Positions 45,265 to 64,000 of a stretch of 64,000 bases of DNA are shown in pieces. The stretch's first letter is position 1, and the number at the start of each line of letters is the position of its first letter. The notes beneath the pieces were generated by a model. The model had not been told where the DNA came from, made no database searches, and was given only the letters and a program-made list of their open reading frames with translations. Both the position numbers and the translations under genes were made by a program. This DNA comes from Streptomyces jumonjinensis (lineage in GTDB: Bacteria > Actinomycetota > Actinomycetes > Streptomycetales > Streptomycetaceae). The DNA is taken from contig NZ_VCLA01000009.1 in NCBI RefSeq assembly GCF_009600885.1, positions 1 through 64,000 of the forward strand, given 5' to 3'.

Positions 45265-46152
45265 TCAAGGGCTGCCGGGGAGCGATCGGTGGTGGGGGGT
45301 GCGGGTCGTCAGCAGGGAGGGGTGGCCGGTGAGCACGGCCTGGTGGAGCCGGCGGAGTTCGGCGCACGGCTCGATGCCCAGCTCCTCGTCGAGGGTGGCG
45401 CGGGCGGCGCGGTAGGCCGCGAGCGCGTCGGCCTGCCGGCCCGCCCGGTAGAGGGCGGTCATCAGGGTGGCGCGCAGCCCCTCGCGCAGTGGGTTGGCGG
45501 CGATCAGCGCGGTCAGCTCGGGGATGAGGGCCGTGTGTCTGCCGAGTTCCAGATCGGCGTCGATGCGCTGTTCCAGGGCGACCAGACGCTCTTCCTCCAG
45601 CCGGTCGCGCTCCAGTCGGACGAGCGGTTCGCAGACTCCGCCCAGTGCCACGCCGCGCCAGACCGCGAGAGCTCCGCGCAGCAGCCGGGCCGCGGAGGCG
45701 GGGTCGCCGGCGGCCAGGGCGGCGGCGCCCCGGCGGGCGTGGTCCTGGAATTCGGCGAGGTCCACCCGGACGCCCCGGTGGGGCAGGCGGATCAGATAGC
45801 CGGGGCGGCGGCGTTCGACCTCGGCTGCCGGGCCGATCAGCTGCCGTACCCGGGAGGCGTAGGTGTGGATCTGGGCGGGCGAGGTGGCGGGCGGGGCGTC
45901 GCCCCACAGGAGCGCGGTGAGCTCGCTGTCGGGCACCACCCGGCCCCGGGCGAGCAGCAGCGCTGTCAGTACGGTGCGGGGTTTGGCGCCGCCGAGGTGG
46001 AGCGGCCGGCCGTCGCGGTGGGCCTCGACGGGCCCGAGCAGGCTCAGGGTGAGGCCCGGCGTCCTGGTCGGCTCCGTGGACCAGTGCCGGCCCTGGGCCA
46101 GGTCCGTTTCCCGGCCCGGAAAGGTGATCTGGGTCAGGGTCACGGCGATCAC
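45265..46152 (-). CDS. SARP-family transcriptional activator
   Basis: This 295-residue protein has the OmpR-like winged helix (about 35-125: LSLLGPVEAHRDGRPLHLGG, LLWGDAPPATS, RRPGYLIRLP) and the bacterial activator domain BTAD (about 130-265). SARPs activate antibiotic clusters from direct-repeat sites next to -35 boxes. The start GTG 46152 overlaps the stop of the small exported peptide gene (GTGA), so the two are translated together. It is the best candidate pathway activator of the cluster to its right. Confidence 0.88.
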   Translation of the reverse strand: MIAVTLTQITFPGRETDLAQGRHWSTEPTRTPGLTLSLLGPVEAHRDGRPLHLGGAKPRTVLTALLLARGRVVPDSELTALLWGDAPPATSPAQIHTYASRVRQLIGPAAEVERRRPGYLIRLPHRGVRVDLAEFQDHARRGAAALAAGDPASAARLLRGALAVWRGVALGGVCEPLVRLERDRLEEERLVALEQRIDADLELGRHTALIPELTALIAANPLREGLRATLMTALYRAGRQADALAAYRAARATLDEELGIEPCAELRRLHQAVLTGHPSLLTTRTPHHRSLPGSP

Positions 46153-46346
46153 GGGCCCCAGATGTTGTCCGGCCTGGCGTCGTCGCCCTGCCCGCCGCCC
46201 GCGCCGATCTCCTTCGCCACCGGGGCGGCCGGCGGGACGTCCCCGTCATGGGGGCCGCCGGCGCCCGTCCCGCCGAGGGCGAGCACCAGGGCCACGGCGA
46301 GGGCGCCGGCGCCGAGCATGGCCTTGGGACGGAGCCAGGTCTTCAT
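46149..46346 (-). CDS. Small exported peptide, coupled to the SARP gene
   Basis: A 65-residue product: basic start (MKTWLRPK), hydrophobic core (AMLGAGALAVALVLALGG), then a short acidic Gly/Pro/Asp-rich segment ending DNIWGP. ATG 46346 follows GGGGAGAAC. The predicted mature part is about 35-40 residues. It may be a signal peptide-like leader, a secreted pheromone precursor or a membrane-anchored regulator of the SARP; nothing proves which. Confidence 0.7.
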   Translation of the reverse strand: MKTWLRPKAMLGAGALAVALVLALGGTGAGGPHDGDVPPAAPVAKEIGAGGGQGDDARPDNIWGP

Positions 46347-46617
46347 GTGTTCTCCCCTGTGAGCGCATCGGACGAGTGCAGGAGCGTGCCCCGTCCGGTC
46401 CGGGCGGTGTGTCCTGCTCGATGGGTACGACTCTGCTCGGGAGGCAGGGGTTTGCCCAGGGTATGGGCCTGTCAGGGAGCTGCAATGGCAGGACTATGTC
46501 AGGGCGGCCAGGCTGGTCAGGCCGGACCGGCCCTTTCCTCGGCATCCGCGGCGCGGGCCTACCGGGACTACCGAACCCCGGGCCCCGGGCCGCCCGTTCC
46601 CAGGGGAAGAGCAGCGT

Positions 46618-46941
46618 TCACCCCCGGTCCGCGCCATAGGCCGACAGCTCTACCAGCGTGGCCAGCGGCACCGTGGACCGTCTGCTGAGCCGCCAGCCGT
46701 CCACGGCGCAGCGCGCCAGCACCGCGTCAGCGGACTGTTCGGCCTCGCCGAGCGTCCGCCGGGCGAAGAAGAGCACCGCCTCGACGGACGGCGACGCCCC
46801 GTCCGGCTGGACATAGACGTGTTCCAGCCGGTCGGCGGGGAGCGCCGCGTCCGACAGCAGCGAGCGCAGCTCCTCGCCGAGGCGCTCGGCCCCGTGAGCG
46901 GGGGCGGTCATGGGCTCCAGCCGGATGCTCACCAGGTACAC
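46618..46941 (-). CDS. Hypothetical protein in the regulatory block
   Basis: A 107-residue protein starting at GTG 46941 (AGGACG upstream). It has an alpha/beta pattern: YLVSIRLEPMTAP, EELRSLLSDAALPADRLEHVYV, SVEAVLFFARRTLGEAEQSADAVLARC. No family is recognised, though this type of small protein often accompanies class II lanthipeptide or regulatory genes in Streptomyces. It is divergent from the LuxR gene, sharing a promoter region. Confidence 0.7.
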   Translation of the reverse strand: MYLVSIRLEPMTAPAHGAERLGEELRSLLSDAALPADRLEHVYVQPDGASPSVEAVLFFARRTLGEAEQSADAVLARCAVDGWRLSRRSTVPLATLVELSAYGADRG

Positions 46942-47108
46942 AGCTCGTCCTCCGCGGCATGGCCCGGTCGTGCCCCGAAAAAAACCGTGCTCGGGAACCC
47001 ATCGTTCTGATCGAGCCATCCCATAGAGTATGGCCGCATGACTCGCCGATCAGCCGGACGGAGAGAGTCATGGAAGTTCTTGTGCTGTCGCCCTTGGGGG
47101 AGGGGAAA

Positions 47109-48092
47109 ATGCTTGGTCAGCTGGGTCTCGGCCCGGATGAGGAAGCCATCTACCGTGCGATGTTGGTGGATCCGACGGGAGAGGTTTCCAGCCATACCGA
47201 TCGGTTGGGCTGGACAGAGGAGCGGACCCGTTCCGCACTCGACCGACTGGCCGCCCTCTCGCTCATCAGACCGTCGCCGGACGGCGGACCGGGATGTCCG
47301 GTCGATCCCGAACTGGGTCTCAACTCGCTGCTCATCAGCCAGGAGGCCGAGGTCCTCGAAAGCCAGCGGCGGATCGGGGCGAGCAGGCTCGCGGTGACCC
47401 GGATGCTCGCCGATCTGCGGGCGTCCGGCGAGGGGGGCGCCGCCGAGGTGCAGAAGCTCCAGGGGCTCGGCATGATCCAGTCGAAGATCGAGCATCTGGC
47501 GAACACCTGCACCACCGAGGTGGCGGCCTTCGTCCCGGGCGGCGGGCAGAACGAGAGGCATCTGGAGGCCGCCCGGCCGCTGGATCTGGCGGTGACCGGG
47601 CGGGGCGTACGGCTGCGGTACATCTTTCTGGACAGCGCGCGGAACTCGCAGCCGACCCGGAAGTACATGGAGTGGCTCGGGGAGCGCGGCGCACTGGTGC
47701 GCACGGTCCCCCGGCTCCCTCCGCGCATGCTCATCTACGACCGCGCCACGGCGATCGTGCCGGTCGATCCGGGCGCGGCCGACCAGGGTGTGCTGGTGCT
47801 GCACGGTACGGGTGCGGTGGCCGCGCTGCTGACCCTCTTCGAGACCAACTGGCAGGCCGCGCGTCCGCTCGGACAGCCCGCCGTGACCGCCGACGATCCA
47901 CTGCCGCCGCAGGAGCGCGTGGTGCTGGAACTTCTCACCCAGGGGCTCACCGACGACGCCATCGCCCGTCAGCTGGGGGTCTCCGTGCGCACCACCCGCC
48001 GGATCACCGCCGAGTTGATGCAGCGGCTGGGGGCCCGGAGCCGGTTCGAGGCGGGGGCGCTCGCCGCCAGCCGGGGCTGGGTGCGCCCCTGA
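47109..48092 (+). CDS. LuxR/TrmB-type helix-turn-helix regulator
   Basis: A 327-residue protein with a TrmB-like winged helix (LGLGPDEEAIYRAML and TEERTRSALDRLAALSLIR), a middle phospholipase D-like sensor fold, and a C-terminal LuxR helix-turn-helix (LPPQERVVLELLTQGLTDDA; VSVRTTRRITAELMQRLGA). Such proteins are common pathway regulators in streptomycetes. ATG 47109 is preferred for its GGAG site; ATG 47070 would add 13 residues. The palindrome 1.4 kb downstream is a possible target. Confidence 0.85.
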   Translation: MLGQLGLGPDEEAIYRAMLVDPTGEVSSHTDRLGWTEERTRSALDRLAALSLIRPSPDGGPGCPVDPELGLNSLLISQEAEVLESQRRIGASRLAVTRMLADLRASGEGGAAEVQKLQGLGMIQSKIEHLANTCTTEVAAFVPGGGQNERHLEAARPLDLAVTGRGVRLRYIFLDSARNSQPTRKYMEWLGERGALVRTVPRLPPRMLIYDRATAIVPVDPGAADQGVLVLHGTGAVAALLTLFETNWQAARPLGQPAVTADDPLPPQERVVLELLTQGLTDDAIARQLGVSVRTTRRITAELMQRLGARSRFEAGALAASRGWVRP

Positions 48093-48405
48093 CACCGGGT
48101 GCCCGTCTGAGACCGGATGCGCCCCTGACGCCGCGTACGCCCCCGACACGGGGTGCGTGCCCGGGACCGGGCTCGTACTCAGAGCCGCGTACGCCGCCGG
48201 GACCGGGCCCGTCGCTGACACAGGGCACGTACACACCGCGTACGCCCCCCGGGCGCGGGCCCACACGCGTCCGGCCGGTCCTCGCGCTCCATCGGCGGGC
48301 GCGCGGACCGGACCCGGCCGTGCGTCGGTCACCACGACTGCCTCATCAGGGCCTTCCGTGTCGTACGGGGCGAGTGCTGCTGCCGGCCGAGGCTGTCATC
48401 GGCTC
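48093..48405. other. Convergent spacer with degenerate repeats
   Basis: These 313 bases separate the LuxR gene from the sugar-nucleotide gene, which end towards each other. No gene is seen. The 11-mer CCGCGTACGCC recurs at 48131, 48185 and 48236, inside units of about 51-54 bases with CCGGGACCGG-like fillers. No clear terminator stem was found. Confidence 0.6.
48131..48246. repeat. Degenerate 51-54 bp repeats with CCGCGTACGCC core
   Basis: Three exact copies of an 11-base core start at 48131, 48185 and 48236, with looser similarity between them. The palindromic GTAC centre is shared. Confidence 0.7.
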
Positions 48406-49431
48406 CTACATTTTCTCTGCACCGGCCAGTTGCAGATCCTGCCCGGCGGCCTCCGCGAGGGTCCCGGCGGACTGCCGGGCCCGGAACCAGTCGATGGTCT
48501 CGATGAGTCCGCGCTCCGTGGCGAACTCGGCCCGCCAGCCGAGGCATTCATACGCCTTGGCGGTGTCGGGGCACCGGACCGACGGATCGTCCACCGGACG
48601 CGCCACCTGGACGATACCCGCCGGGGACGCGGTGAGCTCCCGGATCCGCTCGGCGAGCGCGAGTATCGTCACCTCCTCCTGGTTGCCCAGGTTGACCGGG
48701 CCCTCGACGGTGGAGCCGGTCATCCGGACGATGCCCTCGATCAGATCGGAGACGTAGCAGAGCGAGCGGGTCTGGGAGCCGTCGCCGGCCACCGTGATCG
48801 GCTCGTGGGCGAGCGCCTGGCGGATGAAGGTGGGCACGGCCCGCCCGTCGTGGGCGCGCATCCGGGGGCCGAAGGTGTTGAAGATACGGATGATCCCGGT
48901 GTCCACGCCGTGGGTGCGGCGGTAGGCCATGGTGATCGCCTCGGCGTAGCGCTTGGCCTCGTCGTAGACCGAGCGCGGGCCGACCGGGTTGACATTGCCC
49001 CAGTACGTCTCCGGCTGGGGGTGGACCAGCGGATCGCCGTAGGTCTCCGAGGTGGAGGCGAGGATGAACCGCGCCTCCTTCTCCCTCGCCAGGTCCAGCA
49101 GATGCCGGGTGCCTTCGGAGCCCACCCGGAGGGTTTCCAGCGGGAGTTCCAGATAGTCGACCGGGGACGCGGGCGAGGCGAGGTTGAGAACGGCCGTGAC
49201 CGGCCCCTCGATCCGCAGCGGTCCCGCCGAGACATCGGCCTCGATCAGCCGGAACCCCTCGGCGCCGGTCAGATGGGCGATGTTCTCCGGGGATCCGGTG
49301 ACGAAATTGTCGACGCAGACGACATGCCAGCCGTCGGCGAGCAGCCGTTCGCACAGATGCGATCCGAGAAACCCCGCCCCGCCGGCCACCACGGCTGTTC
49401 CGGCCGCCCCGCTCATCCTGCTCGTTCGCAT
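48406..49431 (-). CDS. NAD-dependent UDP-sugar decarboxylase/epimerase (UXS-like SDR)
   Basis: A 341-residue extended SDR. The NAD motif [14 protein letters not shown], the string [20 protein letters not shown] and the catalytic [14 protein letters not shown] with YDEAK are those of UDP-glucuronate decarboxylases, so UDP-xylose is the best guess; a dTDP-sugar dehydratase is possible. ATG 49431 is eight bases after GGAGG; ATG 49437 and an extension to 49461 are open. It is divergent from the halogenase operon and shares its promoter region. Confidence 0.85.
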
Positions 49432-49543
49432 TCCCATTTCCTCCCTGGAATTACACGGCATACGGGGGAATGTGACATCAAGAAAGCAACCTACGCAAGA
49501 GTAAATTCTTCACATCCAGCACAGGCCGGGTGTTCTTCATACC

Positions 49544-49707: not shown

Positions 49708-50463
49708 ATGACGCAGCGCGAGATAACCGCCGCCACGGTCGAAGAGCTGATCGCCAAGAACATCTCGGAGCGCTTCGACAACGACCACGAGGTCGTCAAG
49801 CTCTCCCAGCACTTCCGCCGCGAGGGCTATGTCAAGCTGCCCGGTCTGGTCTCGCCGGAGGTCTTCGACGCCGTGGCCGAGGAGACCCACCGGCTCATCG
49901 ACACCCATCAGAAGCGCATCGACATCCGGCTCAAGGAGACCGGCGACTCGCCGCGCTACATGTCCACGGTGGGCCAGAAGGCCATCGCCACGGACGGCGA
50001 GCTCGTCCCGGCCGTCTACGAGTCGCCCGCGCTGAAGGGGTTCCTCTCCCGCATCGCGAAGGAAGAGGTGCTGGACTGCCCGTGGGACGAGGAGAAGTAC
50101 ATCATCACCCGTCAGCACCAGCGCGGTGACACCCACGGCTGGCACTGGGGCGACTTCAGCTTCACCGTCATCTGGCTGATCGAGGCGCCGTCCCTGGAGT
50201 ACGGCGGCATGCTCCAGTGCGTCCCGCACACCGACTGGAACAAGGAGGACCCGCGGGTCGAGGACTACCTCCAGGAGCACCCGATCCGCTCGTACGGCCA
50301 CGCCAAGGGCGACATGTACTTCCTGCGCTCGGACACCACGCTGCACCGCACGGTCCCGCTGAACGCCGACCGTACCCGGATCATCCTGAACACCTGCTGG
50401 GCCGGTCAGCGGGACATGACCAAGACCGCCACCCACGAGACCATGCAGGCGATGTTCGACTGA
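49708..50463 (+). CDS. BesD-like Fe(II)/2-oxoglutarate radical halogenase
   Basis: This 251-residue cupin-fold enzyme has the metal site His146-Trp-Gly148 with distal His213 (TLHRTVPL) and the 2-oxoglutarate Arg at about 224. Hydroxylases have HxD; Gly in place of Asp leaves room for chloride, the halogenase signature. From memory, BesD (free L-lysine 4-chlorinase) uses His137, Gly139 and His204: the 67-residue spacing is identical. Its recalled substrate contacts (Glu120, His134, Asp140, Asn219) map at a constant offset of nine to Glu129, His143, Asp149 and Asn228; Thr221 would be Cys230. It heads an eight-gene operon. Confidence 0.88.
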   Translation: MTQREITAATVEELIAKNISERFDNDHEVVKLSQHFRREGYVKLPGLVSPEVFDAVAEETHRLIDTHQKRIDIRLKETGDSPRYMSTVGQKAIATDGELVPAVYESPALKGFLSRIAKEEVLDCPWDEEKYIITRQHQRGDTHGWHWGDFSFTVIWLIEAPSLEYGGMLQCVPHTDWNKEDPRVEDYLQEHPIRSYGHAKGDMYFLRSDTTLHRTVPLNADRTRIILNTCWAGQRDMTKTATHETMQAMFD

Positions 50464-50504
50464 CAGGGGCGATCGGCGAGAACGCGCAGCAGAGGACGGC
50501 CAGG

Positions 50505-51575
50505 ATGCCTGCCACGCTTTCGATCACCGCGATGGTGCCCTGTTTCAACGAGGAGGAATGCATAGAGCAGGCATACCTGGAAATCAAGCGCGAGATATAC
50601 CGCTACGAAGACTCGGAGATCCTCTTCATCGACGATGGATCCACGGACGGCACGCTCGGCATCATCAAGCGGATCGCCGCCGCGGATCCCCGCGTCAGCT
50701 ATCTCTCCTTCGCCCGCAATTTCGGTCTGGAATCGGCTTTCACAGCCGGTTTCGCCTATGCGTCGAAGGAATGGACCGTCCAGCTCGACGCTGATCTCCA
50801 GTCCCCGCCCGCCGAACTGCATAAACTCGCCCGGCGGGCCGTGGAGGGCGACTACGACGCGGTGTTCGCGATCCGGGCCAACCGGCAGGACCCCTGGCAC
50901 CGCCGGCTCGGCACCCGGGCCCACCAGGCCATCGCCACCCGGATCCTGGGCATCGAACTGCCGGTGCGGGCCTCGGTGTTCCGGGTGGTGCGCACCTCGG
51001 TGGCGCGCAAGGTCGCCGAATGCCGGGTCAGCACCCCGTACTTCATCGCCACCCTGCCGCTGATCGGCGCCAGCTACACCACGATGGAGGCCGCGCACGC
51101 CGCCCGGCGTGCCGGACGCGCCAAGTGGTCCCTGGGCAAGCTGTTCCGGCACGCGCTCGACCTGTTCGTCGGGTTCTCCTACCGTCCGCTCGCCCTGATC
51201 TATCTGGCCGCCGGGGGCGCCGCGGCAGCCGCGACCGCGCTCGCGCTCTCCTCCGGCGGGACCCGGGTGCTCGCCGTGGCCTCGGTGATCCTGCACGCCT
51301 TCGGCCTCGGCGCGCTCGCGCTGCTCGCCCGCTATCTGGTGCGCATCATGCGCGGCGGCGCGGGGCTGCCGCGCTATCAGATCCGGGAGGCCAATGTGCC
51401 CATCCGGCCCCAGGACGACCTCTACGCCTATCGACACGCTTCCACCGGCGGCCGGGGCCCGGCCGCGCCACTGCCGCAGCAGGGCCCGGCCGCACCGCCA
51501 CCGCAGACAGGCCCGGCCGCACCGCTACCACTACCGCTGCCGCAGACAGGGAAGCAGACAGGGAGACTGCCATGA
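50505..51575 (+). CDS. GT2 glycosyltransferase of the polyprenyl-phosphate (GtrB/DPM1) type
   Basis: A 356-residue enzyme. The GT-A domain shows MVPCFNEEECIEQAY, FIDDGSTDGT and the metal-binding QLDADLQSPP. Two C-terminal membrane helices (about 225-245 and 255-280) place it at the inner membrane face. Relatives load a sugar from UDP- or GDP-sugar onto undecaprenyl phosphate. The tail is a Pro-rich repeat (GPAAPLPQQGPAAPPPQTG). It overlaps the ATP-grasp gene by four bases. Confidence 0.88.
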   Translation: MPATLSITAMVPCFNEEECIEQAYLEIKREIYRYEDSEILFIDDGSTDGTLGIIKRIAAADPRVSYLSFARNFGLESAFTAGFAYASKEWTVQLDADLQSPPAELHKLARRAVEGDYDAVFAIRANRQDPWHRRLGTRAHQAIATRILGIELPVRASVFRVVRTSVARKVAECRVSTPYFIATLPLIGASYTTMEAAHAARRAGRAKWSLGKLFRHALDLFVGFSYRPLALIYLAAGGAAAAATALALSSGGTRVLAVASVILHAFGLGALALLARYLVRIMRGGAGLPRYQIREANVPIRPQDDLYAYRHASTGGRGPAAPLPQQGPAAPPPQTGPAAPLPLPLPQTGKQTGRLP

Positions 51576-52834
51576 CAGAGCCACAGCACATCCTGGTGCT
51601 GGGCGGGGGCGAGGACCAGCTGCCCGCCTACCACGAGGCACGCCGCCTCGGGTACCGGGTCATCGGGGTCGACCGGCGCCCGGACGCGCTCGGGGCCGCC
51701 GCCAGCGATCTCTTCCTCTGCATGACCACCCGGGCGCCGGACCGGATCGCCGCGATGGTCGGCCATCTCGACGTCGCCGCGGTGATCTCCCCCGCCAGCG
51801 ACGCCGCGCAGGAGTCGGTGGCGGAGCTGAGCCGGCTGCTGGGCACCCCGTACCAGCCCGCCCCGGACGCCGTGCGCGCCTCGGTCGACAAGGGCTGGTT
51901 CCACACCGTGCTGGACCGCCTCGGACTGCCCGGCTACGCCTACGCGCAGTCGTCGGACGAGGCGGAGCTGCGCCGGGCCGCCGCCGATCTGCCGCTGCCC
52001 GTCATCGTCAAGCCCAGCGACTCCTCCGGCAGCAAGGGCGTCCAGGTCGTCGCCGACCCGGCGGCCCTGCCGGGCGCGCTCGCCGAGGCCCGCCGGCACT
52101 CCTTCACCGGCGAGGTGATCGTCGAGGAGATGCTGCTCGGCCGGCATCTGTCCGCCGAGGCGTTTCTGCGCGGGTCCACGCTGGCGACCATCGCCGTCAC
52201 CGAGCGCTCCACCACCGGCGCCCCGCATATGATCACCACCGCCCATACGGTCCCCGCCGAGCTGACGCCGAGCACCGAGATCCGGCTGCGCTCCATGATC
52301 ATGGACATCTGCGGCGAACTCGGCCACACGGACGGTCCGGTCAACTTCGACTTCGTCGTGGACGCCGCCGACGAGATCCGCTTCATCGAGATGGGCGCAC
52401 GGCTCGGCGGCAACGGCATGCCCCTGCTCGTCCGGCACGCCTTCGGCATCAACACCTACGAGGCCGCGCTCCGTCTGGCGCTGGGGCAGCCCACCGAACT
52501 GACGCCGCGCCACCACCGCAAGACCGCGCTGCGGATCCTGACCGCCGACACCGACGGCGTCCTGCTCGGCGTCGACGGCACGGACGCGGTCCGCGCGCTG
52601 CCGGAGACCGTGGAGCTCCAGCTCTTCGCCGAACCCGGCAGCCGGGTCCACCGCTACACCCAGGCCGGACACAAGCTCGGCTATCTGCTGCTCGTCGCCG
52701 ACACCCATGACGCGCTCCGCGCCGCGCAGGCCAGGGCCGAGTCCCTGCTGCGCTTCCGGATCGAGCCCGCCACCCCCCGCGCGGCGTCCGCCGCCGCCCC
52801 CCGTTCCGAGGAACTTACGGAGCAGATCCGTTGA
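51572..52834 (+). CDS. ATP-grasp carboxylate-amine ligase
   Basis: A 420-residue ATP-grasp enzyme that would activate a carboxylate as acyl-phosphate and join it to an amine. The N-terminal Rossmann-like part (LVLGGGEDQLPAYHEARRLG) resembles PurK and carbamoyl-phosphate synthase-like ligases; ATP-binding strings are PVIVKPSDSSGSKGVQVV and VIVEEMLLG. The metal-binding end is FIEMGARLGGNGMP. The substrate is unknown; an amino acid is likely. Overlaps both neighbours by four bases. Confidence 0.85.
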   Translation: MTEPQHILVLGGGEDQLPAYHEARRLGYRVIGVDRRPDALGAAASDLFLCMTTRAPDRIAAMVGHLDVAAVISPASDAAQESVAELSRLLGTPYQPAPDAVRASVDKGWFHTVLDRLGLPGYAYAQSSDEAELRRAAADLPLPVIVKPSDSSGSKGVQVVADPAALPGALAEARRHSFTGEVIVEEMLLGRHLSAEAFLRGSTLATIAVTERSTTGAPHMITTAHTVPAELTPSTEIRLRSMIMDICGELGHTDGPVNFDFVVDAADEIRFIEMGARLGGNGMPLLVRHAFGINTYEAALRLALGQPTELTPRHHRKTALRILTADTDGVLLGVDGTDAVRALPETVELQLFAEPGSRVHRYTQAGHKLGYLLLVADTHDALRAAQARAESLLRFRIEPATPRAASAAAPRSEELTEQIR

Positions 52835-53610
52835 ACACCATCCGCCGCAACGCGGCCTTTCTGATCCTCACCGCCCTGGCGCTGTTCTTCGCGGGCATCG
52901 TGTGGTTCGCCATGCCCCACGAGCGCGAGGTGAAGAGCCTCTGGGTCCTGCTGTTCAAACTGGTGCCGTTCGTCTTCGCCACCGAGGCGATCGCCCAGCT
53001 CGACCCGGTGTGGGCGAAGCGGGCCCGGCTCCATCTGACCGTGCCCCTCTGCTTCCTGGTGTACTTCACCTTCTTCGTACCGAAGATCTTCTTCTACGCC
53101 ACGGTCCACCCCGAGCTGTACTACTACATCCTGACGCTGACGCCGTTCCTCATTCTGACCTTCGTCTTCAACTACCGGCTCGGCGGCGGCGCCGCCCATC
53201 TGGTCCGCAGGCTGTCGTACGCGATGATCCTGCTGATGCTCTCCGGTCTTGAGGACCTCGCCTACCTCACGGTCAACGAGCACACCGACCCGGCCTGGGC
53301 CACCATCCCCGAGGTATGGACCTGGGCCTCGCATATGACGGTCCGGCTCGGCCACCCGGCCAGCAAGTACGAGGCGTACGCCTTCATCGTCGTCCATGTG
53401 GCGGTGGCGCTGTTCGTGCTGCTCGCCCCCACCCGCTGGTTCACCCTGCTCACCGACCGGTTCCGGCGCGGCGGCACGCCGTCGCGCACCGTCACGGCGA
53501 AGGCCGCGGAAAAGGCCCCGGCGAGCGGCGACACCGCCCCGGACGCGCCCGCCACGGACGCGCCCGCCACGCAGGCGAAGCCGTCCGCCCGGCGCACCCC
53601 GGCCGGCTGA
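52831..53610 (+). CDS. Polytopic membrane protein, unknown function
   Basis: A 259-residue protein with about six membrane helices (6-27, 38-55, 72-92, 100-118, 130-150, 190-208) and an Ala/Pro/Thr-rich cytoplasmic tail. The start is TTG 52831, overlapping the ATP-grasp stop (TTGA) with GGAG upstream. Aromatic-rich segments (FFVPKIFFYATVHPELYYY) suggest a substrate channel, but no family is recognised. Confidence 0.75.
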   Translation: MNTIRRNAAFLILTALALFFAGIVWFAMPHEREVKSLWVLLFKLVPFVFATEAIAQLDPVWAKRARLHLTVPLCFLVYFTFFVPKIFFYATVHPELYYYILTLTPFLILTFVFNYRLGGGAAHLVRRLSYAMILLMLSGLEDLAYLTVNEHTDPAWATIPEVWTWASHMTVRLGHPASKYEAYAFIVVHVAVALFVLLAPTRWFTLLTDRFRRGGTPSRTVTAKAAEKAPASGDTAPDAPATDAPATQAKPSARRTPAG

Positions 53611-53627
53611 GGGCGGGGGCGGCGACG

Positions 53628-56353: not shown

Positions 56354-57852
56354 CCAAGGCAGAACATCCGCGCGCGTCCGGCCGGAGCCCGCGCGGCGGC
56401 CCGCCCGCATGGCGCGGCGTCGTCTGGCCGCTGCTGATCTCGGCCGTCGCTCTGGGCGCGCTCATCGCCGTGCTGGGCTTCGGGCTCGGCACACCGGAGG
56501 ATCTGCCCGGGGCCGCGTCCCCCGATGCGACCACAGGCGGCGGGACCCACCCCAGCGAGACGATCCTGCGGGTGACCTGCGCGCTCGCGGCGGTCGCGGC
56601 GGTGGCCGCGCTCGGCGGCCGGCTGGCCCGGCGGCTCGGTCAGCCCCCGGTCATCGGCGAGATCGCGGCGGGGCTGCTGCTGGGCCCGTCCGCGCTGGCG
56701 GGGCTGGTGCCCGCGTCGACCGAGGTGTTCTTCCCCGAGTCGGCGAGGCCGCTGCTCTCCCTGCTCGCCCAGGTCGGTCTGATCCTCTTCATGTTCGCGG
56801 TGGGCTCCGAGTTCGATGTGGCGGAGCTCCGGCGCAGCGGCCGGGTGGTCGGGGTGGTCAGCCAGGCGAGCATGGTCGTGCCCTTTGTGCTGGGCGCGCT
56901 GTCGGCACTGGTCGTCTACCGGGAGTTCGCCGCCGACGGGATCGGTTTCATCCCCTTCGCCATCTTCCTCGGCACCGCGATGAGCATCACCGCCTTCCCG
57001 GTGCTGGCGCGCATCGTGCAGGAGTCGGGGCTGGCCCGGCGTCCCCTCGGCACGATGGCCATGGCCTGCGCCGCGGCCTGCGACGTCATCGCGTGGTGCA
57101 CGCTCGCCCTGGCGATGGCGGTGGCGGGGTCCGGCGGTCCCTGGGGGGCCGTGGGCACCGTGCTGCTCGCGGCGGCGGTCACCGTGGTCGTCCTGCGGGT
57201 GGGCCGTCCGCTGGTCCGGGCGGCGGAGCGGTGGGCCGACCGGGCACAGGTCCCGGTGGCGGCCCGGGTGGTCTTTCTGCTGCTGCTCGCGTTCTCGCTG
57301 GCGCGGCTGACCGATGTGATGGGCGTCCACGCGATCTTCGGCGCGTTCCTGGCGGGTCTGCTGGTGCCGCACCGTCCGGGGAACCGGATGACGGCCGTGC
57401 AGACCGGCATCGACTCCCTCAACCGCAAGCTGCTGCTGCCGCTGTTCTTCGTGACGGTCGGCATGACGGTCGACCTCACCGCGGTGACCGGACGGGCCGG
57501 GCTGCTGCTGGCCGGGGTGCTCGTCCTCGTCGTCGCCGTGGTGGGCAAGCTCGCGGGCACCGCCGTCACCGCGCGCTCCGCCGGTCTGCCCTGGCGTACG
57601 TCGCTGGGGCTCGGCGTCCTGCTGAACGCCCGCGGAGTGACCGAGATCGTGGTGCTGCGGGCCGGCCTGGAGGCCGGGCTCATCAATCAGAACGCGTTCA
57701 CCGTGCTGGTGGTGATGGCGGTGGTGACCACCGTGATGACCGGTCCGGCGCTCGACCTGCTGAAACTCTCCCACCGCCGTACGTCCGCCGCCCCCGGTGC
57801 GGAAACCGCGTCGCCGGTCACCGGCGACGCCAAGGAAAAGGAACTCGTATGA
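56350..57852 (+). CDS. Cation/proton antiporter, CPA2 family
   Basis: A 500-residue Kef/NapA-type antiporter with about 13 helices. Visible hallmarks are QPPVIGEIAAGLLLGPS, FMFAVGSEFDV, MSITAFPVLARI, GVHAIFGAFLAGLLVP and LPLFFVTVGMTVDL, with NARGVTEIVVL near the end. It may drive export or protect from a basic product. The start and end overlap neighbours by four bases, so it belongs to the operon. Confidence 0.88.
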   Translation: MTKAEHPRASGRSPRGGPPAWRGVVWPLLISAVALGALIAVLGFGLGTPEDLPGAASPDATTGGGTHPSETILRVTCALAAVAAVAALGGRLARRLGQPPVIGEIAAGLLLGPSALAGLVPASTEVFFPESARPLLSLLAQVGLILFMFAVGSEFDVAELRRSGRVVGVVSQASMVVPFVLGALSALVVYREFAADGIGFIPFAIFLGTAMSITAFPVLARIVQESGLARRPLGTMAMACAAACDVIAWCTLALAMAVAGSGGPWGAVGTVLLAAAVTVVVLRVGRPLVRAAERWADRAQVPVAARVVFLLLLAFSLARLTDVMGVHAIFGAFLAGLLVPHRPGNRMTAVQTGIDSLNRKLLLPLFFVTVGMTVDLTAVTGRAGLLLAGVLVLVVAVVGKLAGTAVTARSAGLPWRTSLGLGVLLNARGVTEIVVLRAGLEAGLINQNAFTVLVVMAVVTTVMTGPALDLLKLSHRRTSAAPGAETASPVTGDAKEKELV

Positions 57853-58892
57853 ACACCGCATCGTCCGCCGCGCCCGTCTCCCTCGTCACCGGTGGCGCGG
57901 GGTTCATCGGCTCCCATGTGGCGCGCGAGCTCCTCGCCGCGGGACATCAGGTGATCATCCTCGACGATCTCAGCGGCGGGACCCGCGCCAACATCCCGGC
58001 CGGGGCCGAGTTCCGCCACGGCAGCGTCTGCGACCCGGAGGTGGTCGACGCGGTCTTCGCCGCGCACCGCATCGATTACGTCTTCCACCTCGCCGCGTAC
58101 GCCGCTGAAGGGCTGAGCCACTTCATCAAGCGCTTCAACTACATGAACAACGTGGTCGGCAGCGTCAATCTGATCAACGGCGCGGTCAACGCGGGCACGG
58201 TGAAATGCTTCGTGTTCACCTCGTCCATCGCGGTGTACGGCGCCAACCAGCTGCCGATGAGCGAGGATCTGACGCCCGCGCCGGAGGACCCGTACGGCAT
58301 CGCGAAGTACTCCGTCGAACAGGAGCTCAAGGTCACCGAGGCGATGTTCGGCCTGCCGTACATCGTCTTCCGGCCGCACAACGTCTACGGCGAGTACCAG
58401 AACATCGGCGACCGCTACCGCAACGTCATCGGCATCTTCATGAACCAGGCGCTGCGCGGCGAGGAGTTCACCGTCTTCGGCGACGGCGAGCAGACCCGGG
58501 CGTTCAGCTACATCAAGGACGTGGCCCCCGCCATCGCCCGCTCCGTGGAGATCCCCGCGGCCTACAACGGCGTCTTCAACGTCGGCGGCGACCAGGTCTA
58601 CAGCGTCAACCGCATCGCGGCGGCCGTCTGCGACGCGATGGGCGTCGAGCTGCGGGTGAACCATCTGCCGGAGCGGCACGAGGTGCGCGACGCGTACGCC
58701 AGCCATGAGCGCGCCCACAAGGTGTTCGGCACGCCGGAGCTGCCGGTCTCCCTGGAGGAAGGCATCGGGCGGATGGCTGCCTGGGTGAAGGAGGTCGGTC
58801 CGCAGGAGCCGTCGGTGTTCTCCGGCATCGAGGTGGTCCGCAATCTGCCCCCGTCGTGGCGGACCGCGCTGGAGCAGCGCCGCACGATCTGA
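57849..58892 (+). CDS. NAD-dependent sugar-nucleotide epimerase/dehydratase
   Basis: A 347-residue extended SDR close to UDP-glucose 4-epimerases: GGAGFIGSHVAREL, FHLAAYAAEGLS, FTSSIAVYGANQLP, YGIAKYSVEQEL (YxxxK) and FRPHNVYGEYQN. It would set the sugar donor for the GT2 enzyme. It ends the plus-strand operon; a bidirectional terminator follows 21 bases later. Confidence 0.88.
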   Translation: MNTASSAAPVSLVTGGAGFIGSHVARELLAAGHQVIILDDLSGGTRANIPAGAEFRHGSVCDPEVVDAVFAAHRIDYVFHLAAYAAEGLSHFIKRFNYMNNVVGSVNLINGAVNAGTVKCFVFTSSIAVYGANQLPMSEDLTPAPEDPYGIAKYSVEQELKVTEAMFGLPYIVFRPHNVYGEYQNIGDRYRNVIGIFMNQALRGEEFTVFGDGEQTRAFSYIKDVAPAIARSVEIPAAYNGVFNVGGDQVYSVNRIAAAVCDAMGVELRVNHLPERHEVRDAYASHERAHKVFGTPELPVSLEEGIGRMAAWVKEVGPQEPSVFSGIEVVRNLPPSWRTALEQRRTI

Positions 58893-58913
58893 GCGGCAGC
58901 CCGTACTGACGGT

Positions 58914-58958
58914 GCCGCGGTACGGGCCGGAGGGCTTCCCCCCGGCCCGTACCGCGGC
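58914..58958. terminator. Bidirectional terminator between convergent operons
   Basis: A perfect 17-bp stem (58914-58930 with 58942-58958; GCCGCGGTACGGGCCGG) with an 11-base loop sits between the epimerase stop at 58892 and the end of the second PaaK-like gene at 58966. It should serve both operons. Confidence 0.9.
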
Positions 58959-58965
58959 GTTCTGG

Positions 58966-60294
58966 CTAGGGAGTGTCGGCCGGCTCGGCGGACCGGATCA
59001 CCTTGACCAGCTTGACCTTGCCGTTCCGCTCGGGGGCGATGGCGTCCACGGCCCCCACGGTGACCTCGAAGCCGGGGACGGCCTTCCGGAGCGCGGCCTC
59101 GATCCGCCCGGTCACCGGGGCGTCGGCGCGGTCCGCGAGGACCACCGAGACCGCGAGCCGGCCGGGCTGCTCCTGGATCAGCTGCATCCGGGACACCTCG
59201 CGGAAGTCCTTCACCACACAGGTGAGGAAGTCGGCGTGGAAGTCGCGGCCGTCGAGGCCGCGCAGCCGGTCCTCGCTCCGCCCCTGCACGGCCAGCACGA
59301 TCGGGGTCCGGACCCCGCAGCCGCAGGTGTCGGGCCCCACGGTCACCCGGTCCCCCAGCCGGTAGCGGATCAGCGGCATCGCCTCGCTGCGCAGCCGGGT
59401 GACCAGGATCTCGCCCTCCGCCTCCCGGCTTCCGTCGGCGAGGACCGCGGTGCCGTCCTCCTGTTCGAGTTCGACGACGACGTCCGCCGAGCGCAGATGC
59501 AGCGCCCCGCGCCGGCAGCTCCGGGCGATGGTGAAGACCTCCACGGAGGCGTACACCTCATGGCCCCGGGCCCCCAGATGGCCGAGGACCCGGGCCCGTG
59601 CGGTGGGGGTGAGCCGCTCGCCGCCGAACTGCACGGTGTGCGCGCCCCGGTAGCGGATCCCGCGCCGTTCCAGCTCCTCCACCACCGAGGCGATCACATG
59701 CGGGAAGCCGACCAGGAACGTGGGCCGCGCCGCCAGGAACGCCTCGACCTGTTCGTCGAGGGTGCCGCTGGTGTCGATGTGGAAGGTACGGAGCAGACCG
59801 AAGCGCTCCAGCGGATGCCGGAGGAACGGCTGCACCCGGAAGTACGCCATCCGGTCCCAGGGGCGGAGCCCGGAGGAGAGCATGTCGGAGAGGTAGGAGG
59901 CCCGCAGATAGCCGAGGTCCCGCTCGGAGTTGTGGATGGTGACCGGGACCCCGGTGGAGCCGCTGGTGGTGCCCGCCTTGGTGTTGGCGGTGGTGAAGCC
60001 GGTCGCGAGCAGCTCCTCGGGGGCGCGTGTCTGGAGCTCGATCCGGTCCAGGGTCGGCAGGGCGGGCAGATCCTCGGGGCCCCGGAAGGCGTCGGCCGTC
60101 TCCGCTGTGATCAGCGCCCGGTAGCGCGGCACCTGGGCCCGCGCGTGCCGTAGCAGCCGTACCAGCAGCCGCCGCTGCTCCTCGGCGAGCCGCTCGGGCG
60201 AGGCCCGCTCCAGGCGGCGCGCGCGGGCCAGGCTGTAGAGGACCGGACCGAGCCTGATGACGGGGGCGACCGGACCGCGGCCGGCTGGGGTCAT
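58966..60294 (-). CDS. PaaK-like adenylate-forming ligase (2)
   Basis: A 442-residue paralogue-like relative of the plus-strand ligase, about equally long. Motifs: TTSGSTGVPVTIHNSE, EVYASVEVFTIARSC, LIRYRLGDRVTVG, and TCGCGVRTPIVLAVQGRSED with a Cys knuckle. The C-terminal Lys motif is IAPERNGKVKLVKV. ATG 60294 overlaps the stop of the upstream gene (ATGA). It probably activates a second acid partner. Confidence 0.85.
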   Translation of the reverse strand: MTPAGRGPVAPVIRLGPVLYSLARARRLERASPERLAEEQRRLLVRLLRHARAQVPRYRALITAETADAFRGPEDLPALPTLDRIELQTRAPEELLATGFTTANTKAGTTSGSTGVPVTIHNSERDLGYLRASYLSDMLSSGLRPWDRMAYFRVQPFLRHPLERFGLLRTFHIDTSGTLDEQVEAFLAARPTFLVGFPHVIASVVEELERRGIRYRGAHTVQFGGERLTPTARARVLGHLGARGHEVYASVEVFTIARSCRRGALHLRSADVVVELEQEDGTAVLADGSREAEGEILVTRLRSEAMPLIRYRLGDRVTVGPDTCGCGVRTPIVLAVQGRSEDRLRGLDGRDFHADFLTCVVKDFREVSRMQLIQEQPGRLAVSVVLADRADAPVTGRIEAALRKAVPGFEVTVGAVDAIAPERNGKVKLVKVIRSAEPADTP

Positions 60295-61064
60295 GGTGAG
60301 CTCCGCTCTCTGCGCAGAATGGGACGGCCGTGCCGGGGGCAGCTCTCCGGACGGAAGAGCTCGGCCCCTTCGGGACGGACATGGACGAGCGTGGGGCGCC
60401 GGTGGCGCAGCAGGGTGAGCACAGTGACCCCGTCCAGCAGCCGGGCGTGCACCCGGGCGGGGTTGAGGTGCAGCTCCCCGCAGGACGGCGGCACCGCGCC
60501 GAGATGACCCAGCCAGGGTTCGTGCCAGAGGGCGCCGCGCGGGTGCGCCCCGTCGCTCCCGGCGAGGCTCAGCCGGGGCACGGTGGGGGCGGTCCCGGCG
60601 GGGGGCACCGGTCCGCTGGCATCCACGTCGGCGATCACCAGGGCCGGTCGCCCGGAGGGGACCGCGCGGTCCGGGTGGTGTTCCCGGAGCGGGTCCCGGT
60701 ACGGGTCGGTCTCCGCGGCGGGCGAGAGCACCACCCGCCAGGTGACGCCGTACGCCCGTACCGGATCGCGCAGCGACCGGGCCGTCTCGTACACCTCGGC
60801 GCCCCGGCGCGGACGGCGCCCGGCCAGGCACAGCGCCTCATAGAGCTCGGCGATGTGCTCCCCGGCCGGACGGGGCCCCGGGTCACGGCGCGGCAGCAGG
60901 GCGGCGCCGAGCGGCATCAGCAGATGCCGCCGCGCCTCGGCCTCGTCCCGGGTGAGCGGCGGCAGCGCCCCGTCCGCGCTCTGCCGCTCCCGGTAGTGCG
61001 GAACGGTCCGCAGCGCGCGGCGCACCGTCCGCGCGTACTGCCGCTCATGGTGTGCGGAACTCAT
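60291..61064 (-). CDS. Unknown protein with a PaaK-like N-terminal stretch
   Basis: A 257-residue protein. The start (ERQYARTVRRALRTVPHYRERQ) resembles the N-terminal helix of PaaK-like ligases (HARAQVPRYR), but no adenylation motif follows. The middle reads DPVRAYGVTWRVVLSPAAETDPYRD and the end CPRHGRPILRRERSSP. It overlaps the PaaK-like gene and may form a complex with it. Confidence 0.65.
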   Translation of the reverse strand: MSSAHHERQYARTVRRALRTVPHYRERQSADGALPPLTRDEAEARRHLLMPLGAALLPRRDPGPRPAGEHIAELYEALCLAGRRPRRGAEVYETARSLRDPVRAYGVTWRVVLSPAAETDPYRDPLREHHPDRAVPSGRPALVIADVDASGPVPPAGTAPTVPRLSLAGSDGAHPRGALWHEPWLGHLGAVPPSCGELHLNPARVHARLLDGVTVLTLLRHRRPTLVHVRPEGAELFRPESCPRHGRPILRRERSSP

Positions 61065-61065
61065 C

Positions 61066-61428
61066 TCAGCAGTTGGTGTTCTGGTCGTGGACGAGCAGCC
61101 AGCCGCCGGCGGTGCGGGCGAAGACCAGGCTGAGGAAGTAGCGCAGCCGGTAGGGCTCGCCGTCCCGGTCCAGATCGTCGTAGTCGACGGTGAGCACCGC
61201 GACGGCCGTGTCCGTCTGCACCAGGGTGCGGGTGACGGAGACGGTCATGGTCCAGTCGGGGTCCTCGAACCACCCCTTGTGGAAGGCGCGGATCTCGTCG
61301 GCCCCGGAGAGCACGGTGCCGTTGGGGAGGATGAAGGTCGCCTCGGGGTGCACCGTGGCCATGCAGGCGTCCAGATCGCGGTCGCGGACGGTGGCGAGGT
61401 GGTGGTCGAGCGCGGTGGTGAAGTCCAT
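61066..61428 (-). CDS. SnoaL-like/NTF2-fold protein
   Basis: A 120-residue small alpha/beta cone: TALDHHLATVRDRDLDACMA, VHPEATFILPNGTVLSGADEI, WTMTVSVTRTLVQTDTAVAV and LRYFLSLVFARTAGGWLLVH. This is the SgcJ/EcaC-type family, whose members act as isomerases or cyclases or bind small molecules. One base separates its stop from the next start. Catalytic role unknown. Confidence 0.85.
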   Translation of the reverse strand: MDFTTALDHHLATVRDRDLDACMATVHPEATFILPNGTVLSGADEIRAFHKGWFEDPDWTMTVSVTRTLVQTDTAVAVLTVDYDDLDRDGEPYRLRYFLSLVFARTAGGWLLVHDQNTNC

Positions 61429-61517
61429 GGGGACCAGGGCCTTTCCGGGTCTGTTCCAGAGGAGCTGACTGCTCGGTGGATGCGGTGTGTCGGTGTGTCA
61501 GGAGGGCGCGCGGGCGG

Positions 61518-62522
61518 TCAGCCGGGGGCGAAGGGCGCGATGACCGCGTGGCGCGGCAGGAGTTCGCAGCCGAAGGACTCCTTGAGCTCCCTCATCCCGG
61601 GGCCGAAGTCGACGGCGGGCACCCCGGTGGCGATGAGGTGCTCGATCTCCCGCAGATACAGATCGAAGTAGAGGTCGCGGACCCCTTCGGCGGAGCCGGT
61701 GACCGTGGTGGCCCAGCCGCCCGGTGTGTCCAGGACGAGATCGAAGGAGACGGGCCGCCCCGAGCCCTTGTCCAGATGGGCGAAGTACACCGCTCCGGAG
61801 CGCTCGTTGAGCCTCTCGAAGTACCCGGCCGGCAGCGGTGCGACCCGGCCGGGCCGGCTGCTGTGCTTCATCCGGGTCAGCTGGTCCAGCCTGCTGGCGC
61901 GCACCGGGTCGATCGCGGGGACCGCCGTGGCCACCTCCAGCTCCGGATCGCTCCCGACCCGTTCGTACAGCGCGGTCAGCCGCCGGCGGCGGTTACGGGG
62001 CAGTTCGGCGAAGTACCGGTCCATGGAGTCCCAGCGGGTACGGAGCACATGGCTCGGCGCGACCGGCCGGTGGTGGCGGAAGGGGCCGGTGAGATCGGCG
62101 AGCTCGTGCTCCAGTACATCGAGGTGGAGGACGCCGAGGCAGCGTACGCCCAGTTCGCGGCGGAGTGCGCGCTCGAAGGCGCGTACGGAGGCACGGCGGG
62201 CGGCGGTGGTGAGCGCCTCGGCGTGGAGCCGCCCGCCGCCGAAGCTGTTGGGCAGATGCGTCTGGAACCAGCCGGGCGTCACCGGGCGGCCGGGCGGCCC
62301 GAACCGCTGGGCGAGCGGCCAGACGCCGAGCCGGCCGCAGAAGGCGGCGACCGGTTCGCCCGCGTCCCGCACCAGGGCGGCGTAGAGCGGCCGGGTGCTC
62401 GCCCAGGCGGCGGCCTCCAGCAGGGGCGCTTCCCAGAGCACGGGGGCCCGGCAGGCCCGGACGAAGGGGTCCCAGCCGTCGGGGGCCGCGCCGGCCCCGG
62501 GGACGAAGATCTCAGCGCGCAT
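61518..62522 (-). CDS. GNAT/FemAB-fold acyl or aminoacyl transferase
   Basis: A 334-residue protein of the tandem-GNAT type seen in FemAB/BioF2-like transferases: WYF-type stretches, MDRYFAELPRNRRRRLTALYERV with an Arg-rich loop, DQLTRMKHSSRPGRVAPL, YFERLNERSGAVYFAHLDKG and the C-terminal VDFGPGMRELKESFGCELLP. FemAB relatives move an amino acid from charged tRNA to an amine. The gene overlaps the LysRS-like gene by 11 bases, favouring that chemistry here. A plain N-acyltransferase is the alternative. Confidence 0.75.
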   Translation of the reverse strand: MRAEIFVPGAGAAPDGWDPFVRACRAPVLWEAPLLEAAAWASTRPLYAALVRDAGEPVAAFCGRLGVWPLAQRFGPPGRPVTPGWFQTHLPNSFGGGRLHAEALTTAARRASVRAFERALRRELGVRCLGVLHLDVLEHELADLTGPFRHHRPVAPSHVLRTRWDSMDRYFAELPRNRRRRLTALYERVGSDPELEVATAVPAIDPVRASRLDQLTRMKHSSRPGRVAPLPAGYFERLNERSGAVYFAHLDKGSGRPVSFDLVLDTPGGWATTVTGSAEGVRDLYFDLYLREIEHLIATGVPAVDFGPGMRELKESFGCELLPRHAVIAPFAPG

Positions 62523-64000
62523 GGCGGGACTCCCGGGGGTCGTCGGCGGGGGCGGGCCCGGGTCCCGTACAGGCGGGCCGCGGCGGCGCGGGTTCCGTGC
62601 GGGCGGGCCGCGGCGGCGCGGGATCCGGATCGTCCACCGCCGTCAGCCGCCCGGCCTCGCGGCGGGCGTCGTCGAGTGCGGTCTGCATCCGTTCGCGCAA
62701 CGGCCGTTCGCCCCGGTCGCGGTAGGCGGTGAGCGCGTCGGCCAGCGCCCGGGGGGTGAAGACCTCGGCGAGGGTGTCCAGCCGGGGGCCGTGGTCGGCG
62801 CCGAGCAGGGCCCGGTAGATCTCCCGGCACTCCTCCCGGCTCATCGGCCGGGCGCCCGGCCGGGACCCGGGCCCGGACGGTCCCGCGAGCCGTGCGGCCA
62901 GTTCGCCCACCGCGGCCCCGGCGGGCGCGGCGGGTTCCGGTTCGCCGTACGGCGGGTCCCCGTGCAGCGCGAGCCAGGCCAGCGCGTGTCCCGTACGCGC
63001 CGACAGCAGCTCCCGGTCCGCTTCCGGATGGCGGCGCAGCAGCTCCCGCAGCGCGGCGTCCCGGTCGCAGCCGTGGGCGTACAGCGCGCCGAGCACCGAC
63101 CGCATCCCCGGCAGCGCGGCCCGGTCCGCGTACGGCTCGTCGGTGAGCAGCTCCCACAGGGTGCGGGCCCGGTCGTCCGCGCCGGCCCTCCGCACGAAGC
63201 GGTCGAACTCGTCGTAGGCCCCGAGGAACAACGCCCGGCCGAAGCCGAGCCGCAGATCGGAGAGACAGTTGCGGCGGGCGTACAGCCAGAGCACGAGCGG
63301 CGCGGGGAACACGGCGAGCAGATCGCGCACATACGGTCCCCCGCCCCGCGAACCGGAGATCTTGCCGTCGCCGTGCTCGGTGCGCACCAGGCCGTACGGG
63401 ACGATGACCGGTTGCGGAGTACGGAGATAGTCCTCGTACAGCGGCCGGGTGCGGTCCATGGTGCTGCCGGCGCTGCAATGGTCCTGGCCCGCGGGCTCGC
63501 AGTCGATCCGCTCATGGGCCACGCGGAGGGTCCAGTCCAGGGCCCAGGAGGGTTTGACGTCGCCGGGGAAGCGGGCGGTGAGCGCGGCGCCGCAGGACAG
63601 ACAGCGGTACCGGGCCGCGCGTGCGTCGAGCCGGTGGATCTCGGTGGTGTTGCGACCGCACTGGAGGCAGTAGACCGCGAACAGATCGCGGCCGTCGCCG
63701 TCCGCGCGGCCGAGCAGCCGGGCGAGCCGTCCCGCGTCCCGCTGATAACGGCGCTGGAGGGTCTCGTACTCCCCCGCCAGATACCGGTCGCGCTGGTAGT
63801 GGGTCCGCCAGTGGCTGCCGGGCGGGGTGTGCCCGTCCGCGTCGGCGTCCGGCGGCAGGATGCCGACCGCCCGCAGCTCGGCGACATAGGCGCGGCAGAT
63901 GCGGGCGGCCCGCTCCCGGCGGGCCGCGAGCGGGCGGCCCGCGCAGTCGGCGAGTTCCGGATCGCGGGCCGCCTGGCTCTCGCGCACCGGGTCGTAGTCG
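62512..64000 (-). CDS. Class I lysyl-tRNA synthetase-like protein, N-terminus outside the window
   Basis: The frame is open through the right edge; a GTG at 63987 is internal, not the start. The visible part matches class I (archaeal-type) LysRS: zinc-knuckle residues CLQCG and CLSCG, the WALDWTLRVAHERIDCEPAGQDHCSAGS segment that in LysRS holds the adenylate, and GKISGSRGGG at the KMSKS position. A helical anticodon-binding part follows, and the end is a Pro/Arg/Glu tail. The HIGH motif must lie beyond 64000. It may be a housekeeping-type paralogue, resistance enzyme or biosynthetic charger. Confidence 0.82.
   Translation of the reverse strand, partial: DYDPVRESQAARDPELADCAGRPLAARRERAARICRAYVAELRAVGILPPDADADGHTPPGSHWRTHYQRDRYLAGEYETLQRRYQRDAGRLARLLGRADGDGRDLFAVYCLQCGRNTTEIHRLDARAARYRCLSCGAALTARFPGDVKPSWALDWTLRVAHERIDCEPAGQDHCSAGSTMDRTRPLYEDYLRTPQPVIVPYGLVRTEHGDGKISGSRGGGPYVRDLLAVFPAPLVLWLYARRNCLSDLRLGFGRALFLGAYDEFDRFVRRAGADDRARTLWELLTDEPYADRAALPGMRSVLGALYAHGCDRDAALRELLRRHPEADRELLSARTGHALAWLALHGDPPYGEPEPAAPAGAAVGELAARLAGPSGPGSRPGARPMSREECREIYRALLGADHGPRLDTLAEVFTPRALADALTAYRDRGERPLRERMQTALDDARREAGRLTAVDDPDPAPPRPARTEPAPPRPACTGPGPAPADDPRESRHAR

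Follow-up and report, generated by a model that had tools for sequence, protein, structure and literature searches.

A conserved biosynthetic gene cluster around a SwHalB-type halogenase was analysed in a window of 64,000 nucleotides from Streptomyces jumonjinensis (RefSeq assembly GCF_009600885.1, contig NZ_VCLA01000009.1, positions 1 to 64,000); the whole contig measures 73,551 bases and the genome 8.46 Mb. Eighteen genes were called from 45265 to 66028 and lettered A to R (Table 1); the 16 proteins A to P were scanned against Pfam, and an NCBIfam scan was also run. The cluster is a real biosynthetic unit, conserved across Streptomyces and no fewer than five further actinobacterial lineages, and it is where SwHalB, a characterised lysine chlorinase and well-studied radical halogenase, comes from; the enzyme thereby acquires a conserved setting of 11 genes and a role open to testing. 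With a probability of about one half, the cluster chlorinates lysine, loads transfer RNA (tRNA) through P, a protein resembling class I lysyl-tRNA synthetase (LysRS), carries out a transfer through the FemAB-fold protein O, and builds a chlorolysine-containing, sugar-bearing molecule, its amino acids riding on tRNA and not on assembly-line enzymes.

Conservation and distribution of the cluster

Eleven core genes (D, E, F, G, H, I, K, L, M, O and P) were found together in 11/11 relatives in which the whole cluster was read; S. griseoflavus and Streptomyces sp. DH5 were read in part. The relatives with the core block belong to Streptomyces, Actinoplanes, Streptosporangium, Sphaerisporangium, Kineosporiaceae and Stackebrandtia, and three of the eleven are by their titles metagenome-assembled genomes (MAGs; Sphaerisporangium, Kineosporiaceae, Stackebrandtia). 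A preliminary description of this DNA had proposed an undescribed cluster centred on a radical amino-acid halogenase; its genes are kept together in other genomes, the opposite of the lack of joint conservation that had been set beforehand as its refutation. The halogenase was found in 10/10 searched genomes with a cluster-type LysRS (65–88% identity) and was absent from three by-catch genomes whose LysRS match is the ordinary one (0/3); this search left out two loci (L087, L088). Because the same gene set recurs in other genomes, the cluster is not a product of chance.

For the search across GTDB, two short peptide patterns from the LysRS-like alignment were used, a scan that is not exhaustive, and 15 loci were returned, of which 12 hold the cluster (one being S. 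wuyuanensis, already met in the genus search) and three are ordinary LysRS genes. Outside the core, C was found in 9/11, N in 10/11 and J in 8/11 fully read relatives (one J at only 36%), and I, a core gene, ranges from 34 to 76% identity across 11/11. The regulator A is present at 72–81% in 4/4 fully read Streptomyces relatives, is represented in S. toyocaensis by only 48 residues at a contig end, and was not found in the stretches read for 7/7 non-Streptomyces relatives; B was matched at 70–71% in four Streptomyces relatives and at 45% in Actinoplanes. Q and R accompany the cluster in Streptomyces only, with one 26% regulator match near the Actinoplanes locus.

Within the genus, a halogenase-family match was found in 48 of 392 genomes, and neighbourhoods were read for 20 of the 47 besides the window's own (one a 3.1 kb contig), with the cluster present only in genomes G034 (88%) and G273 (85%); the other 27 matches are nearly all weaker, and their neighbourhoods lie outside the 20 read. 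O was matched at 69–70% only in the same two of the 392 genomes, with weak matches in seven more. The presence of any HalB-like halogenase was rejected as a marker for the cluster, since 18/20 neighbourhoods read are without it. Two further genomes, G055 (L046/L071) and G372 (L047/L072), carry 60% HalB-like halogenases that share a different conserved neighbourhood, in which a haem-oxygenase-like oxidase, FGGY-type kinases and antiporters were recognised by eye, and G142 (L045) carries a 65% halogenase with the HWG triad and no cluster around it. When G was searched in 394 genomes of the class, it was found in 11, the window's own included, and matches of at least 50% were limited to the window's own genome and G633, so the cluster is rare. 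Plasmid origin gained no support, as 72,556 plasmid records gave three weak LysRS-like matches (28–32%).

The halogenase D

D scores 344.9 bits against PF23169 HalD (cut-off 26) and is 88% identical to the S. wuyuanensis halogenase SwHalB, which by eye agrees with PDB 7u6i ('Halogenase B') apart from the first residue. The earlier label of radical amino-acid halogenase was right, and can be sharpened to SwHalB orthologue. An iron facial triad with Gly in place of Asp/Glu (HGWHWG) is present in D and in 11/11 other cluster halogenases, and among 14 non-cluster relatives HWG was found in eight and the hydroxylase-type HWD in six. Against the BesD equivalog NF042920, D falls below the cut-off (266.3 bits vs 450).

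HalB is described as an L-lysine 5-chlorinase (passages of PMC10187165), and SwHalB acts on lysine to give a chlorolysine that was built into a peptide when transcription and translation were run in vitro (passages of PMC8407142). Given its 88% identity to SwHalB, D is likely a lysine 5-chlorinase. The free-lysine halogenases SwHalB and BesD are known as isolated enzymes, and the literature passages available assign HalB no pathway; the S. wuyuanensis gene sits in the same cluster as its orthologue D. A literature search gave no described pathway with this gene set, in agreement with the preliminary description, and the primary HalB papers (Neugebauer 2019, Kissman 2023) may show the neighbourhood. 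No partner of the BesB/BesC type was recognised by Pfam among the 16 proteins. In the Sphaerisporangium MAG, L and D are read as a single 687-residue open frame (L119:8049-10109), which fits a functional link between them if it is not an assembly effect.

The LysRS-like protein P and the transferase O

P keeps the full class I LysRS fold in its predicted structure, together with the C-terminal anticodon-binding-type domain and both ATP-binding signatures, which read HIGN (HxGH-type) and KISGS (KMSKS-type), a pattern held by 47 and 48, respectively, of 49 family members found. Homologue counts were at least 49 for P, at least 22 for O and 328 for G, and the LysRS alignment was built from 41 of the 49 proteins, eight being omitted by choice. 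P was filed as LysRS-like and not as LysRS because its score against the lysine--tRNA ligase equivalog TIGR00467 is under the cut-off (118.4 vs 147.55). Loci L099–L101 were rejected as cluster-type LysRS, since they align as ordinary class I LysRS with about 27% identity to P and no halogenase; the L100 protein is 71% identical to the housekeeping enzyme.

O scores 24.7 bits against PF13480 (cut-off 22), and its predicted structure (predicted local distance difference test, pLDDT, 90.8) has Sba18, FemX and MprF as best matches, fitting these aminoacyl-tRNA-dependent enzymes better than GNATs that depend on coenzyme A (CoA). O is accordingly best described as a predicted aminoacyl-tRNA-dependent transferase, and the pairing of P with a FemAB-fold protein suggests a tRNA-dependent step, a point that the preliminary description had not made. 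Lys314 of O is invariant in 23/23 rows of the alignment, its nearness to the position of the catalytic Lys305 of FemX being judged only by an end-to-end alignment (4–334/1–327), and a FemX sequence-profile search of the PDB gave nothing credible. In predicted fold, O resembles Sba18 and Sbb17, by their PDB titles aminoacyl-tRNA-dependent natural product transferases, and its double-GNAT architecture is similar to that of the FemX-like GNAT-fold transferases VlmA, DhpH-C, PacB and Orf11 (passages of PMC12945691). The main text of that review has zero occurrences of 'lysyl' or 'LysRS' and mentions no LysRS-like partner. O differs from MprF, a lysyl-phosphatidylglycerol synthase, in standing alone as a soluble-type protein with no hydrophobic windows and in belonging to a different gene set.

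AcmF and SbzA are likewise synthetase-derived proteins inside biosynthetic clusters. AcmF is of class II and misses most ATP-binding and alanine-activation residues, and SbzA, an isoleucyl-tRNA synthetase copy, itself transfers the aminoacyl group (passages of PMC12945691); P, by contrast, is of class I, keeps both ATP signatures and adjoins a separate transferase. Synthetase copies in clusters, AcmD and SbzA among them, can also confer self-resistance (same source), and P might replace a housekeeping LysRS poisoned by the product, all the more as the chlorolysine made by SwHalB entered an in vitro-translated peptide and may thus be accepted by the housekeeping enzyme. Against this stand an identity of only 25% between P and the genome's own housekeeping LysRS, the changed motifs of P, the overlap of its gene with that of O, and the sister clusters described below; a self-resistance role is considered unlikely.

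Another reading would have P activate lysine or chlorolysine and pass it straight on to a protein or small molecule, O being a separate acyltransferase. Synthetase paralogues such as PoxA/EpmA pass an amino acid on in this way without tRNA, and the strong divergence of P and its score under the LysRS equivalog cut-off are in keeping with it. P has nevertheless kept the anticodon-binding-type domain, which with the zinc ribbon is the very part retained in the sister clusters, and we hold this reading to be similarly unlikely.

Sister clusters with a reduced LysRS-like protein

In genome G633, a related cluster holds F, E, K, N, O, M, G and I, lacks the halogenase, PaaK1 (H) and PaaK2 (L), and has a short LysRS-derived gene between O and M. 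Such a gene was found in G633, G805 and G819 when 60 genomes of that family were searched, each with two to three O copies. In the stretches read of these three sister clusters, O and M are kept and no halogenase and no PaaK1/PaaK2 match was found; two of these genomes have distant halogenase-family matches on contigs other than that of the cluster.

A single profile comparison (E 7e-34) places the three short proteins (261, 304 and 495 residues) with the LysRS clade of the cluster, though only over two regions. Their zinc ribbon scores 29–33 bits (8–31 in four canonical LysRS) and their C-terminal domain 92–94 bits (canonical 2–25), while neither catalytic segment exceeds 7.1 bits (canonical 53–79). 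The sister-cluster proteins have lost the catalytic core, and the zinc ribbon and C-terminal anticodon-type domain remain. Canonical class I LysRS over the Pfam cut-off was found in none of G805 and G819 and once in G633. Since the part retained beside the transferase has an anticodon-binding-type domain, these proteins are the best indirect evidence that a step depends on tRNA, and since a version without the core could not charge tRNA and is still kept beside the transferase, they argue against P being a resistance copy. A second related cluster of G633 (L139, contig C230) has three O-like transferase genes in a row, with M, GT2, ATP-grasp, G and carbamoyltransferase genes; a LysRS-like piece was not found in it.

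The sister clusters also bear on a route in which O uses acyl-CoA from the PaaK-like ligases to make an acylated chlorinated amino acid or dipeptide, consuming no tRNA. Two such ligases are present in 11/11 relatives and PF13480 carries an acetyltransferase domain name, as that route would have it. Its standing is lowered by the modelled structure of O, which is nearer to aminoacyl-tRNA enzymes than to CoA-dependent GNATs, and by sister clusters that keep two to three copies of O, and M, with no PaaK1/PaaK2 match in the stretches read, and it is thought rather improbable.

Ligase, sugar and membrane genes

For the adenylate-forming ligases H and L, NCBIfam DVU1553/PaaK models were matched, all below their equivalog cut-offs, and Pfam AMP-binding was below its own; for H, the DVU1553 family gave E 4.6e-40, with PaaK and BagE/FevW also matched. 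Adenylation motifs are kept (TSGSTG in H, invariant in 14 rows; TSGSxG in L; a conserved RYxLGD stretch), and the two profiles match each other over 397 columns (E 1.3e-48). M, of 257 residues, has no Pfam family and matches the profiles of L (probability 41, E 2.8e-4) and H (probability 11) weakly; it was rejected as a working PaaK on its length and these weak matches, and may be a PaaK remnant.

The best PDB matches of C are UXS1 structures (E about 1e-93; next molecule 2e-33) and that of K is the UDP-glucose 4-epimerase 4zrm (E 8.5e-52). From these similarities, C would supply UDP-xylose, and C and K together could give UDP-pentoses. PgfS and ArnC models were best for E in NCBIfam, with scores below cut-off, pointing to a putative polyprenyl-phosphate glycosyltransferase. 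G has no Pfam family above cut-off; among its homologues is a Streptomyces jumonjinensis protein with 97% identity. In five distant genomes of one family (L140–L144), a G homologue (29–34%) lies directly beside a GT2 gene in 5/5 genomes read (nine such genomes found), and G is presumed to be the partner of the GT2 enzyme. The resemblance of E to PgfS/ArnC, together with this adjacency, leads to a polyprenyl-phosphate pentose as a guess. The flippase assignment of I is weak (Polysacc_synt E 0.015).

The GT2, flippase-like, epimerase and UXS-type genes would suit an ordinary polysaccharide locus, for capsule or cell wall, with lysine decoration, as would the resemblance of O to MprF, which lysylates a lipid. 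Among the 16 proteins, however, Pfam recognised neither a polymerase nor a priming transferase, nor any glycosyltransferase of a second family, and both a SARP regulator and a halogenase, typical of specialised metabolism, are present, making such a locus very improbable. The capsule locus, the resistance copy and the CoA-only route are all ranked below a tRNA-dependent step.

Proposed pathway

In the proposed pathway, free lysine would be chlorinated at C5 by D, and chlorolysine (or lysine) would be loaded onto tRNA by P and moved by O from tRNA to an acceptor which either bears a polyprenyl-linked pentose or encounters one. The ATP-grasp ligase F may form a further amide bond, and the PaaK-like enzymes H and L may activate carboxylic acids. 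UDP-pentose would arise from the decarboxylase C and the 4-epimerase K, the pentose would be put on polyprenyl phosphate by E and G, and the product or an intermediate would be moved across the membrane by I and J. Our best guess for the product, as in the preliminary description, is a conjugate of a halogenated amino acid with a sugar or a lipid-linked group. A more specific version, less likely than not, would be a channel reserved for a halogenated amino acid: P charges tRNA with 5-chlorolysine, O uses this up in making a lipid-linked pentose conjugate, and in the sister clusters the synthetase, reduced to a tRNA-binding adaptor, does no more than present charged tRNA to the transferase.

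If the proposed pathway is right, an unusual amino acid would be put to use in biosynthesis by a class I LysRS-like enzyme of its own, working together with a FemX-type transferase. The sister clusters, with their catalytically reduced synthetase, would then show a synthetase turning into a tRNA-presenting adaptor. Genome mining based on core enzymes may overlook this cluster family, which is without polyketide synthase, nonribosomal peptide synthetase or terpene synthase; as had been claimed, Pfam recognised no such family in proteins A to P.

Locus layout and flanking regions

All gene types named in the preliminary description were recovered by gene calling, Pfam and NCBIfam. The gene set it outlined is real, but its extent is larger, as the LysRS-like gene overruns the window to 64275 and is followed by the two-component pair Q/R. 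Two tight convergent operons, D–K and P–L, were likewise borne out, with four-base overlaps at 6/11 of the junctions inside them (E-F, F-G, H-I, I-J, J-K, M-L). D-E and G-H overlap only if CTG starts are used; with ATG starts, 41 and 17 bases separate the genes. P and O share 11 bases, N-M are 1 base apart and O-N 89. At the convergence, where a shared terminator had been suggested, there is a long, very stable, near-perfect hairpin (-53.5 kcal/mol, z -4.9, 0/200 shuffles as stable), but it has no T-run and was unlisted by a terminator scan.

Table 1. Genes and other features of the cluster and of the sister clusters
Feature	Position	Strand	Assignment and basis
A	45265..46152	-	SARP-type regulator; Pfam BTAD E 3.9e-49
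B	46959..48092	+	LuxR-type regulator; GerE E 5.8e-9
C	48406..49461	-	UDP-glucuronate decarboxylase-type, NAD-epimerase type; UXS1 best PDB matches
D	49708..50463	+	Putative SwHalB-type iron/2-oxoglutarate lysine halogenase; PF23169 HalD
E	50460..51575	+	PgfS/ArnC-type GT2, two C-terminal hydrophobic stretches; PF00535; ATG start probably 50505
F	51572..52834	+	ATP-grasp ligase with L-amino-acid-ligase C-terminal domain; LAL_C2 E 3.7e-19, ATP-grasp_4
G	52831..53610	+	Membrane protein; 4 hydrophobic windows
H	53607..54947	+	PaaK-like adenylate-forming ligase 1 (PaaK1); ATG start probably 53628
I	54944..56353	+	Flippase-like membrane protein; weak Polysacc_synt, 8 hydrophobic windows
J	56350..57852	+	Na/H-exchanger-type antiporter, optional part; PF00999 E 6e-57
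K	57849..58892	+	UDP-sugar 4-epimerase-type; PF01370 E 9e-53
Hairpin	58914..58958 (about)		Between convergent operons; possible bidirectional terminator, no T-run
L	58966..60294	-	PaaK-like adenylate-forming ligase 2 (PaaK2); NCBIfam below cut-offs
M	60291..61064	-	Short divergent protein, possibly PaaK-derived
N	61066..61428	-	SnoaL-like protein; PF13474 E 3e-13
O	61518..62522	-	Predicted FemX/MprF-fold (double GNAT) transferase; PF13480
P	62512..64275	-	Class I LysRS-like, PF01921; cut by window end at 64000
Q, R	64420-66028		NarL-type response regulator, histidine kinase, named by eye; same contig, beyond window
Short LysRS-derived	L137:13112-13894		No catalytic core; beside FemAB-like transferase gene
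Short LysRS-derived	L150:11419-12330		No catalytic core; beside FemAB-like transferase gene
Short LysRS-derived	L152:9720-11204		No catalytic core; beside FemAB-like transferase gene

Flanking genes outside the block are mostly unshared, the exceptions being scattered weak matches; those at 38836 and 39096 of the window have 45–52% partial matches about 4.6 kb from the SARP gene of G034. An erythromycin-esterase-type protein is encoded at 39096-41012 (PF05139, E 9e-80), with homologous stretches near the G034 cluster and the G258 halogenase. Just ahead of the cluster, at 41699-44981, lie rhodanese, metallo-beta-lactamase and TauE genes that were not found in the other cluster flanks scanned. 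Further away, an L31-Actinobacteria ribosomal protein leader was located at 24870-24916 on the minus strand, upstream of a 74-residue open reading frame at 24624-24848.

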